From NCBI GenBank assembly GCA_903929485.1, contig CAIYUY010000045.1:1-44156 (forward strand): a stretch of 44,156 nucleotides of DNA. Reading direction: 5' to 3'. The position numbers and the translations under genes were made by a program. The notes beneath the pieces are model-generated. The model did no database searches, was not told the DNA's origin, and worked only from the letters and a program-made list of their open reading frames with translations. The stretch is from an uncultured Desulfuromonadales bacterium (GTDB taxonomy: Bacteria; Desulfobacterota; Desulfuromonadia; Geobacterales; CAIOGM01). Positions 6,569 to 25,378 of this stretch are shown here, piece by piece. Numbering within the stretch: the stretch's first letter is position 1; the number at the start of each line of letters is the position of its first letter.

Positions 6569-7666
6569 ATGGCGCATAAAATATTCATAGCGGCCACCGG
6601 CCAGAACAGCGGCAAGACAACCACCAGTGTCTCTCTGATGCACCTGGCTCTCAAGAAATATCAGCGGGTCGGCTTCATCAAGCCGTTGGGCCCAAAGCCC
6701 ACGGTCATGCGGGGGATGGCGATCGACAAGGACGCCGCACTCATGGCTCAGGTCTTCGGCCTGCAAAAAGAGCTCCGCTTCATGTCCCCCGTGGTGGTTT
6801 ATCCCGATACCACCCGCAGGTTCATCGATGGCGAAATTTCCCTGCCGGAACTTGAGGAGCGGATACTTCGGGCCGCGGGGGAACTGGAAAAAAGGTGCGA
6901 TTTCCTCATCATCGAGGGGTCGGGGCATCCGGGGGTCGGCTCCGTGATGAAACTTTCCAATGCGCGCATCGCCCGAATGCTGAATGCGCCGATCCTCATG
7001 GTGACTGGGGGGGGGGTCGGCAACGTGGTGGACACCGTCTCCATGAATCTGGCGCTTTTTCGTCAAGAGGGGGCAGAGGTCCGCGCGCTACTGGCCAACA
7101 AGCTGATTTCCGAAAAACGGGACAAGACCATTCATTATCTCCGGAGGGCTTTTGCGGATGAGCCGTTTACGGTGCTGGGTGGGTTTGATTACCAACCTAT
7201 TTTGGCCAACCCGACCCTGCGTCGCATCTCCCAGATGTTGGAACTTCCCCTCCATGGCAATCGACGAGACATGGGGCGAATCATCCACCATGTGCAGATC
7301 GGCGCCGCCTCCACGCAACGGGTCACCGAGCTGCTTCGCCCCTCGTCACTGCTCATAGTCACCAGCAGTCGGGACGAACTGCTGGTGACCCTGGCTAATC
7401 TCTACCAGATGCCCGAATATCGTTCACAGATTGTGGGGCTGGTGGTCCCCGGTATCATTCCGGTAAGCACCATCACTCAGCGGATCCTCGAGCGGAGTAA
7501 CATCCCCTACCTCCGGACCATCAATCACACCACCGCCGAACTTCACCACCTTATCACCGAGGATGTCTCCAAGATCACCAGTGACGACACGGAAAAACTC
7601 GAATTGCTCCGATCCCTGGCGGAAAAACGTCTGGATTTTGAAGCTCTGGACGCACTCTTTGCTTAG
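6569..7666 (+). CDS. P-loop NTPase with DRTGG domain (phosphotransacetylase N-terminal-like)
   Basis: The 365-residue protein begins with a dethiobiotin-synthetase-like P-loop domain: Walker A ATGQNSGKTTTS at 9-20, and FLIIEGSGHPGVGSV at about 112-126 in the place of the DTB synthetase acidic motif. After about residue 215 comes a DRTGG-type domain (SSLLIVTSSRDELLVTLANL, then QIVGLVVPGIIPV). The same two modules form the regulatory N-terminal part of long phosphotransacetylases, but the catalytic PTA_PTB domain is absent, so this is a stand-alone regulator or sensor of unknown ligand. Such proteins are common in Geobacter relatives. Single-gene unit: a palindrome stands before it and a strong terminator after it. 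ATG 6569 follows AAAAGGATGAATC. Confidence 0.82.
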   Translation: MAHKIFIAATGQNSGKTTTSVSLMHLALKKYQRVGFIKPLGPKPTVMRGMAIDKDAALMAQVFGLQKELRFMSPVVVYPDTTRRFIDGEISLPELEERILRAAGELEKRCDFLIIEGSGHPGVGSVMKLSNARIARMLNAPILMVTGGGVGNVVDTVSMNLALFRQEGAEVRALLANKLISEKRDKTIHYLRRAFADEPFTVLGGFDYQPILANPTLRRISQMLELPLHGNRRDMGRIIHHVQIGAASTQRVTELLRPSSLLIVTSSRDELLVTLANLYQMPEYRSQIVGLVVPGIIPVSTITQRILERSNIPYLRTINHTTAELHHLITEDVSKITSDDTEKLELLRSLAEKRLDFEALDALFA

Positions 7667-23114: not shown

Positions 23115-24128
23115 TCAGAACGCATATCTTACGCCGGCGGATGGAATCCAGTACGGAGTGAGCTGAACACCATTTACATATTGGTAAATGGGTATCTGTA
23201 CGAAGGCGTACAAAGTTATTCTATCGCTGACAGCGGCCACCATCCCCGGAGTAAGGTACAGCAAGGTCCCGCCGGTACTGCCGTTGTCCGCATTGGCTCC
23301 GGTGTCACGCATGATATTTCGCACGTTAAGCTGAACCTGCGGAATAACAATATCGAGTCCAACGTAGCGTAAGCCCAGGTTGACATTGAGACTGTTCCCC
23401 GGTCGGTAATGATCCGATGAGTTCAGGGATGACTGATACTGAGCTTGGGTGAAGTATGCCAAATCCGGAGTAATGGCGTCGTTATAATAAGCGCCCAAAA
23501 TCAGATCGGAGGTGCCGGTGCCCGGTTGCAACCCCCGGTCGATGGTAACAGGGCCGGGCGCGGCCGGATCGGTGGAACTGCCGGTGTCGGTATAACTACC
23601 GGTGGGCAACTTGAACCCCAGAAGGATTCCCAGGTTGTGTTTCGAGGAAAAACCCTGATAGCGCCCGATAATTTTCATATCGCCAAGAGACGCCGTATGT
23701 GATTCATACTGACCGCCACTGTCCAAGGGAATGATTCCGTTTGAGGCCGTTCCCAGCGTGCCGTGGTTGCGAATAAGGTAGGGGGCTTGCAGATTAATTC
23801 CCCAGTCCGGATTGGAGCTGTAGTCCAGTCCCAGGGTAATGGTCTGGGTGTTGGTGAATTGCTCGACTTCCTGATTGCCGCTGCTCGTTACCCTCTGACT
23901 GGCGGCGACAGGAGATATGGTTCCGGAACCGCTGCGCAACCGGTGCTGATTCATATAATCGTAACGGAGATCAAGCTTGACCCCCGGTTGGTAGGAGTAC
24001 TCCAGGCTTTGCCAATCGGTACTCACGGTACAACCACAGCTTGCGCATGCCTTGGCGTCTGTCGAGGTGAACGTAGCGATGAGTGCCGCCATGAAAAGTA
24101 CGGTCGTGATGGTGCGAATCCGCCTCAT
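23115..24128 (-). CDS. Outer-membrane beta-barrel protein with N-terminal CASCGC motif
   Basis: The 337-residue protein has a signal peptide (MRRIRTITTVLFMAALIATF, ending near TDAKA) followed at once by CASCGC (Cys 28, 31 and 33). The rest is a run of alternating aromatic and polar strands with short turns (LDLRYDYMNQHRL, TITLGLDYSSNPDWGINLQA, GFKLPTGSYTDTG, ALNVNLGLRY-like strands) and a terminal Phe in AGVRYAF, as in barrel proteins that use the Bam complex. No transport substrate is evident. It is the last gene of a leftward ccdA-tlpA-barrel unit; ATG 24128 follows GGAGAGAAAATT. The Cys motif placed next to a thiol-redox pair suggests the cysteines are reduced or metallated by it, which is inference. 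Confidence 0.78.
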   Translation of the reverse strand: MRRIRTITTVLFMAALIATFTSTDAKACASCGCTVSTDWQSLEYSYQPGVKLDLRYDYMNQHRLRSGSGTISPVAASQRVTSSGNQEVEQFTNTQTITLGLDYSSNPDWGINLQAPYLIRNHGTLGTASNGIIPLDSGGQYESHTASLGDMKIIGRYQGFSSKHNLGILLGFKLPTGSYTDTGSSTDPAAPGPVTIDRGLQPGTGTSDLILGAYYNDAITPDLAYFTQAQYQSSLNSSDHYRPGNSLNVNLGLRYVGLDIVIPQVQLNVRNIMRDTGANADNGSTGGTLLYLTPGMVAAVSDRITLYAFVQIPIYQYVNGVQLTPYWIPSAGVRYAF

Positions 24129-24177
24129 AATTTTCTCTCCTGGTTTCATTTTAGCCGCGCGCCGGTTGCTCACGCCG

Positions 24178-24660
24178 CTATTTCTCTTCATAAGCATCAA
24201 GTTGCTCCGGCAGGCCGATTCCTTTGTAGACGATCCGTCCCGCTTTGTTCAGGATAACGGAGGCCGGCACGCCGGGGAGCTGGAATGTTTTTGCCACTGA
24301 ACCATCGGGGTCGAGAACCACTTGATAGTCGATGTTGTTCGTTGAGATGAATCTCTTGGTTTTCCAGGCGCTCTCCCCTTCGTTGACCGCGACGACCTTG
24401 AAGCGGCCGGCATTGAGTTTGCGAAGACGGGGGATTTCCTCGCGACAGGTGGCGCACCAGGAAGCCCAAAAGAGAAGTATGAGCGGCTTATTTCCCAGGC
24501 ACGCCGACAGGGGGATCGTCTCGCCGGTAGGGCTTTTCATGATCATGTCGGAGGCTTTCAGCTTCTCATCCATCCGCGGCGCGGCGGATGCCGGAGCAGT
24601 CAGGAGTGCGCTGAGAGTGACCGGGAGGAGTAGGGAACAGAGTAGTGGGCGAATAGTCAT
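24178..24660 (-). CDS. TlpA-like periplasmic thioredoxin
   Basis: The 160-residue protein has a signal peptide (MTIRPLLCSLLLPVTLSALL, cut after PASA), then a TlpA/AhpC-type thioredoxin fold with the redox pair C69 and C72 in LLFWASWCATCREEIPRL. FQLPGVPASVILNKAG carries the conserved cis-proline region. It reduces disulfides in periplasmic or outer-membrane substrates and would be recharged by the CcdA-like protein encoded just upstream (10 bases between genes). The barrel gene with its CASCGC motif follows about 50 bases downstream, so it is the likely partner. Length and motifs are complete. Confidence 0.9.
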   Translation of the reverse strand: MTIRPLLCSLLLPVTLSALLTAPASAAPRMDEKLKASDMIMKSPTGETIPLSACLGNKPLILLFWASWCATCREEIPRLRKLNAGRFKVVAVNEGESAWKTKRFISTNNIDYQVVLDPDGSVAKTFQLPGVPASVILNKAGRIVYKGIGLPEQLDAYEEK

Positions 24661-24670
24661 GAGAATAGTC

Positions 24671-25378
24671 CTAGAAATAGTTGGCGGCTGCCTGATAGAT
24701 GAAATACCCTCCGGAACTTGCCATCAGGAGAGCCAACCCTCGTTTAATCAAGACCAACCAGTAGCCGGATCTGGGGAGTAGGGCGGCCGCTCCCGTTATG
24801 ACGCCTAAAACCAGCAGGATCGTACAGATACCGCACGCAAAAACGAACAGCAGCGACATGCCGAAGATGATATTTTGACGTGAAGCGACAAAAAGGAGCA
24901 GCGCGCCCATGACCGGCGCGGTGCAGGGGCCGATAACCAACCCGGAGCAGATCCCCATGGAGAAGGCCGCAGCCGATCCCCCCCTTTTTTGCTCCGATGG
25001 TAGTGGCGGTAATGACGGGCTCGGAAGAGTAATAATGTCCAGCATCGCCAGCGCCATGACCATGTAGATGACGCCAACGGCAAAGTTAGTCAATGGATGA
25101 GCCGAAACGAGCCCGAATATTCTGCCGCTGAGCGCGGCGACTCCACCCAGTACCGCGTAGACAACAGCGATGCCGGCGGCATAGAGCACCGTGAGCAGAA
25201 TACTCTCTTTTCTGGTAACCACCGAACGGCTGCCGATGAAGGCGACGGTTAACGGAATCAGAGGATACGTGCAGGGAGTCAGGCTTGCCAGCAATCCGCC
25301 GGCGAAGGCGGCGGGGTAAGCCAGCATGGAGCCCGCTTTAAGAGAGCTCTCAAGAATGTTCAGCGTTGCGTTGATCAA
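24671..25378 (-). CDS. ccdA: CcdA/DsbD-type thiol-disulfide electron carrier, membrane protein
   Basis: The 235-residue protein has six hydrophobic spans and the two family cysteines, C36 in GGLLASLTPCTYPLIPLTVA and C152 in SGLVIGPCTAPVMGALLLF. It moves reducing equivalents from cytoplasmic thioredoxin across the inner membrane to periplasmic thiol proteins such as the TlpA-like product encoded next. Proteins of this type serve cytochrome c maturation or oxidative folding; no cytochrome gene is nearby, so a dedicated role is likely. The frame starts at TTG 25378 with AAAGGGA upstream. First gene of the leftward operon; the gap to uvrB (25379-25598) holds the divergent promoters. Confidence 0.88.
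   Translation of the reverse strand: MINATLNILESSLKAGSMLAYPAAFAGGLLASLTPCTYPLIPLTVAFIGSRSVVTRKESILLTVLYAAGIAVVYAVLGGVAALSGRIFGLVSAHPLTNFAVGVIYMVMALAMLDIITLPSPSLPPLPSEQKRGGSAAAFSMGICSGLVIGPCTAPVMGALLLFVASRQNIIFGMSLLFVFACGICTILLVLGVITGAAALLPRSGYWLVLIKRGLALLMASSGGYFIYQAAANYF

Follow-up and report, generated by a model that had tools for sequence, protein, structure and literature searches.

A compact ccdA-tlpA-barrel operon was found in the window, the whole 44,156-nucleotide stretch of DNA that was analysed. We consider it moderately probable that the operon encodes a copper-linked outer-membrane channel module, in which an N-terminal thiol tail of the barrel would bind Cu(I) and would be kept reduced by CcdA and TlpA. 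All three genes that the first-pass annotation had proposed are present, in the order and on the strand it gave, according to the open reading frames and Pfam. The features of the operon are as follows:

24671..25378, minus strand: ccdA, a DsbD-type transmembrane thiol carrier of 235 aa (PF02683)
24178..24660, minus strand: tlpA, an exported thioredoxin-like protein of 160 aa (PF00578), with a signal peptide recognised by eye
24445..24459, minus strand: WCATC redox active site of TlpA, located by sequence in the context WASWCATC
23115..24128, minus strand: outer-membrane beta-barrel gene, with a precursor of 337 aa ending in RYAF
24048..24128, minus strand: predicted signal peptide of the barrel, MRRIRTITTVLFMAALIATFTSTDAKA, assigned by the (-3,-1) rule with an A-x-A cleavage site
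24030..24047, minus strand: CASCGC cluster, mature residues 1-6, comprising every Cys of the mature barrel
23985..24047, minus strand: N-terminal tail of the barrel, 21 residues ahead of strand 1, modelled by AlphaFold2 with low confidence (pLDDT ~50)

The ccdA product matched DsbD_TM (PF02683) with 123 bits against a Pfam cut-off of 27 and contains both membrane cysteines of the CcdA fold, in LTPC and GPC, as expected of a DsbD_TM member. The tlpA product, which matched AhpC-TSA (PF00578) with 62.5 bits against a cut-off of 26, combines the AhpC-TSA/redoxin fold with a WCxxC motif and the export signal, as is characteristic of TlpA/ResA-type thioredoxins. The barrel open reading frame as listed, starting at 24200, was too long; an AGGAG sequence precedes the ATG at 24128, which is likely the start codon. 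The genes are separated by gaps of ~10 and ~49 bp and form a compact unit, with a divergent uvrB-like gene upstream and a convergent metallophosphoesterase gene downstream. Scanning the operon for promoters and terminators yielded promoter-like sites only as often as expected by chance, and no decisive feature. The barrel gene is single-copy in the genome, and the CASCGC match is likewise unique there. Elsewhere, the genome encodes at least four further DsbD_TM proteins and several TlpA paralogs. Thus, the operon carries an extra ccdA-tlpA pair beside the general ones.

The barrel of the window had no match in Pfam, PF13557 (Phenol_MetA_deg) included, or in NCBIfam, and a single-sequence search of the PDB found no solved relative. 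At the family level, PF13557 was reached by 19 of 74 homologs at E 0.1, with a best value of 4.9e-14, and the family profile reached FapF by sequence, weakly (E 1.3e-7). The AlphaFold2 model had a mean pLDDT of 87.5 for the precursor and 90.4 for the mature protein. Among solved structures, its best Foldseek match was FapF (E 6e-14, target TM-score 0.74), followed by the COG4313 channel Pput2725 (4rl8; E 3e-10). DSSP assigned ~13 long strands to the model, and the fold of Pput2725 and FapF is 12-stranded. Based on the predicted structure, the window barrel belongs to the COG4313/FapF fold. It is also similar to these proteins in its PTG and GD motifs and in a periplasmic-side segment before strand 1, and it differs from them in lacking any Pfam or NCBIfam match and in starting, once mature, with an invariant Cys cluster. 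Known FapF and COG4313 members are tied to hydrophobic compounds or amyloid, not to copper; the mostly hydrophobic substrates of COG4313 channels (PMC4493636) count against a copper module.

In the COG4313 channel (PMC4493636), as in FapF, which is gated (PMC5557850), the N-terminal segment serves as a pore plug on the periplasmic side. By analogy with these segments, which enter the pore from the periplasm, the Cys tail of the window barrel is plausibly placed at the periplasmic mouth of the pore. The same plugging, together with the gating of FapF, speaks for a redox gate, in which the tail would act as a thiol/disulfide plug and its reduction by TlpA and CcdA would open the pore. The pore would then serve a substrate other than copper or a copper complex, and its control by copper would reflect only the times when it is needed. 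The adjacency of TlpA fits such a gate, and the first and last cysteines of the motif, which are invariant, could pair in one disulfide. However, a CxxCxC arrangement of three cysteines is better explained by a metal site than by one disulfide, and the many copper genes in the neighbourhood, together with the TlpA-PCuAC fusion described below, suit metal handling better, so that we regard a purely redox-controlled gate as unlikely. It is highly improbable that the barrel is a FapF-like secretion pore exporting a Cys-rich peptide or metallophore, with TlpA reducing the cargo and not the tail. The top fold match, FapF, is indeed a peptide exporter, but the conserved cysteines are located in the barrel itself, and its gene neighbourhood showed no conserved gene for a small Cys-rich cargo, DUF2946 leaders aside.

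In the window barrel, DAKA is followed at the cleavage site by CASCGC, and the cluster thus stands immediately after the A-x-A site. A (-3,-1) signal-peptidase site directly precedes the motif in 74 of 75 homologs, which bears out the claim that CASCGC forms the first mature residues and rules out a motif lying within the cleaved signal peptide. A lipoprotein reading of the first mature Cys was also rejected. A lipobox-like site was present in 1 of the 75 homologs, and in the sister SCGxxFC clade, where the mature protein starts with S-C-G-[AS]-x-x-C, the first Cys is the second residue, which excludes its lipidation. The mature start in the CASCGC clade is C-[AS]-x-C-G-C. Across all clades, an alignment of 61 mature homologs shows no variation at C1 and C6 of the motif. 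Among 73 near-full-length homologs, the mature protein has three cysteines in 45 cases and two in 22, and in 67 all of them lie within the first seven residues. The invariance of C1 and C6 together with these Cys counts indicates that the motif is not due to chance, and the restriction of Cys to the first seven residues marks the cluster as the thiol location of the barrel family. A distant barrel from the same taxonomic order as the window (L113, 5468-6463) carries CDLC at its mature N-terminus, and the theme of N-terminal cysteines may extend beyond the family of CASCGC and SCGxxFC barrels.

A single scan of 84,980 species genomes yielded 80 homologous loci, mostly from Pseudomonadota and also from Nitrospirota, Verrucomicrobiota, Campylobacterota, Fibrobacterota, and others. 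Most homologs belong to Pseudomonas, including several culturable species, Burkholderiales, Methylophilaceae, Ferrovum, Nitrospirota, and other groups, and the suggested tie to electron handling in a metal-reducing lineage was not supported. A plasmid search found distant homologs in Manganitrophus, with TlpA 1.5 kb away. One homolog from the same order as the window (L110, 7793-8653) is broken by a stop codon in frame and is missing its N-terminus.

The DUF2946 and TlpA neighbours of the homologs were scored with profiles built for this analysis. Of the 72 loci having 700 bp of upstream sequence, 40 had a same-strand DUF2946 gene directly upstream of the barrel, and with closely related loci included there were 40 matches within 1.5 kb of the barrel vs 1 in the remaining flanks; many loci are close relatives, above all in the Pseudomonas group, so that these and the other association counts do not represent independent events and overstate independence. 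On the family tree, the neighbour-gene labels switch state several times. A Pfam check of sampled leaders supported DUF2946, with one of four slightly below the cut-off. Both CruR (PMC9426467) and CutF (PMC9973294) are DUF2946 copper-sensing leaders, each controlling the gene that follows it, and CruR is of the copper-repressed type (PMC9426467). The spacing between CxxC and R[AG]PP in the leaders was ~44 residues (42-47 in all but one of 39 scored), and the CruR signature combines CxxC and RxPP at a spacing of 45 (PMC9426467). The median gap between leader and barrel, ~93 bp, is shorter than the 162 bp of CruR; thus, the type of the leaders, CruR or CutF, is not certain. In having a DUF2946 leader immediately before an outer-membrane protein gene, these loci are similar to cruR-bfrG-bp2921, from which they differ in encoding a small COG4313-like barrel instead of a TonB-dependent transporter. 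The partners listed for CruR- and CutF-headed operons are AhpC-TSA, PCuAC, CopC, and MbnPH (PMC9426467).

Small exported ORFs with Cys and PP near the C-terminus were observed upstream of Nitrospirota barrels, with the motifs FAALNVC[DN]TP...HPPNL and LDVCGHGG...IDIPPKA:

L014, 6788-7072, plus strand: small upstream ORF
L032: small upstream ORF ending 58 bp before the barrel
L039: small upstream ORF ending ~176 bp before the barrel

According to Pfam, the L014 ORF is not DUF2946. These ORFs may represent a class of metal-sensing leader gene that has so far gone unrecognised.

Further copper genes occur near the homologs. In Ferrovum (L052, 2174-3133), one ORF of 319 aa directly after the barrel gene fuses TlpA (AhpC-TSA) to the copper chaperone PCu(A)C. 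PCuAC, CopC, and MbnP genes flank other homologs, a TonB-copper (OprC-type) receptor (TIGR01778, 734 bits) is encoded ~3.5 kb from the barrel in L025, and NosL genes are present in L007 and L018. A small exported protein rich in CGCG/CDCG repeats is encoded in the NosL cluster of L007 (2921-3298) and L111 (7571-7951), and the L007 copy had no Pfam match. Gene neighbourhoods, namely upstream DUF2946, PCuAC, CopC, MbnP, CusF/CusB, the OprC-type receptor, and the TlpA-PCuAC fusion, make copper the most likely metal handled by the barrel family. The first-pass annotation had left the metal open; its proposal of a thiol-reduction route for a metal-linked periplasmic Cys cluster was supported.

CusB/CusA/CusF or heavy-metal-binding genes at two distant homologs, L063 and L078, favour export, in which the barrel would be an outlet for periplasmic copper or silver detoxification and the tail would capture Cu(I) on its way out. 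That expression goes up with copper under CutF-type DUF2946 genes (PMC9973294) is consistent with this role. However, the leaders have the R[AG]PP motif and the spacing of the copper-repressed CruR type (PMC9426467), which favours production under copper shortage and hence uptake. In addition, the commoner partners, PCuAC and the OprC-type receptor, are delivery or uptake genes. Uptake is therefore tentatively preferred, and export seems rather unlikely.

Of the CASCGC-clade loci with enough downstream DNA, about half (27 of 48) had a TlpA gene next to the barrel, as did 3 of 24 loci of the SCGxxFC clade; the lack of an adjacent TlpA in most SCGxxFC loci counts against a copper module. With closely related loci included, 34 TlpA-like matches were within 1.5 kb of the barrel vs 3 farther away. 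The orientation varies: in some genomes the gene follows the barrel on the same strand, and elsewhere the two genes are convergent. The TlpA of the window matched paralogs from its own genome at up to 36%, vs mostly 21-30% for most TlpAs found at barrel loci beyond its clade. This closer similarity to its own paralogs suggests that TlpA was recruited repeatedly to barrel loci. Another thioredoxin family, Thioredoxin_7, adjoins the barrel in L028 and L034 and is encoded nearby in L078. In Bradyrhizobium, TlpA reduces ScoI and CoxB before metallation (PMC6696091). The window system is similar in that a periplasmic thioredoxin is presumed to reduce copper-binding cysteines, and it is unlike the Bradyrhizobium one in that TlpA would act on the N-terminal tail of a barrel in the outer membrane.

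CcdA adjoins the barrel only in the window and in L109, both from Geobacterales, and in a remnant at L111. A family-wide CcdA partnership was rejected, since a single-sequence profile run on the homolog loci found none, leaving only L109 and the L111 remnant. CcdA is a feature of the Geobacterales branch, not of the whole barrel family. The expected flanking of the barrel by ccdA and tlpA thus held for tlpA in slightly more than half of the CASCGC-clade loci, whereas it failed for ccdA outside Geobacterales and largely for tlpA in the SCGxxFC clade.

The barrels of the window, L109 (genome G121, of the same order but a different family), and L018 (Geobacteraceae) group together with support, and in this clade tlpA is upstream of the barrel. 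L109 has the exact ccdA-tlpA-barrel order, followed by DUF3299, ABC/FtsX, and ZnuA genes. In L018, whose contig stops before any ccdA position, the barrel is followed by genes for a YtkA-like lipoprotein, a second barrel starting with SCCGGG, a redoxin, and NosL. In the L111 remnant (6642-7107), the start of ccdA abuts the end of the barrel gene; it adjoins a cluster of NosL, redoxin, and CCGG-barrel genes, as in L018, and the same genome, G121, carries the full ccdA-tlpA-barrel copy of L109 on another contig. The second barrel type, with SCCGG after the signal peptide (L018, 2620-3600; L111, 4641-5630), is followed by redoxin and NosL-like genes and represents another Cys-tail barrel with a thioredoxin-fold neighbour.

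No copper gene adjoins the window operon, and a search of its genome for DUF2946 found none; the operon is thus unlike those headed by CruR or CutF, and for this genome the case for copper is drawn from homology and from the NosL neighbours of its relatives. This counts against the copper module, as do the ZnuA and DUF3299 genes downstream in L109, which would suit zinc. The Geobacterales module might then serve zinc, or several soft metals, with the copper link in Pseudomonadota being a separate use of the barrel. We judge this to be quite unlikely, because L018 and L111, from the same order, have copper-chaperone-like NosL genes in the cluster, and the first and last cysteines of the motif are kept in every clade without exception.

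In the copper-linked module that we prefer, Cu(I) would be bound by the CxxCxC (or CxxxxC) cluster of the short periplasmic-side tail. The periplasmic thioredoxin TlpA would keep the cluster reduced, as its Bradyrhizobium counterpart does for its targets, and the DsbD/CcdA-type carrier, encoded in the same operon in Geobacterales, would pass electrons across the inner membrane to TlpA. Copper caught at the pore mouth would be handed to periplasmic chaperones of the PCuAC type, or to NosL-like ones in Geobacterales, and production of the barrel would be copper-controlled where a DUF2946 leader is present. A more specific form of this module is possible, if tentative, namely a plug-gated COG4313-like pore whose CxxCxC tail is both Cu(I) site and gate and is reduced by a dedicated CcdA-TlpA relay.

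Copper passage across the outer membrane to periplasmic chaperones is poorly known, and the main described outer-membrane routes are TonB-dependent receptors and a few porins. No earlier description of the motif or of the system was found in the literature searched, which comprised open-licence papers. The parts are of known kinds, and a COG4313-like barrel of copper operons with an invariant N-terminal thiol cluster looks undescribed. A widespread barrel family with all of its cysteines at the start, encoded behind copper-sensing leaders and with thioredoxins, is a testable candidate for this passage and would extend the TlpA principle, in which thiols are reduced and then loaded with copper, to an outer-membrane protein. 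If the plug-gated form is true, electrons from the inner membrane would set the state of a metal channel in the outer membrane, and the barrels would represent a new class of outer-membrane copper channel.
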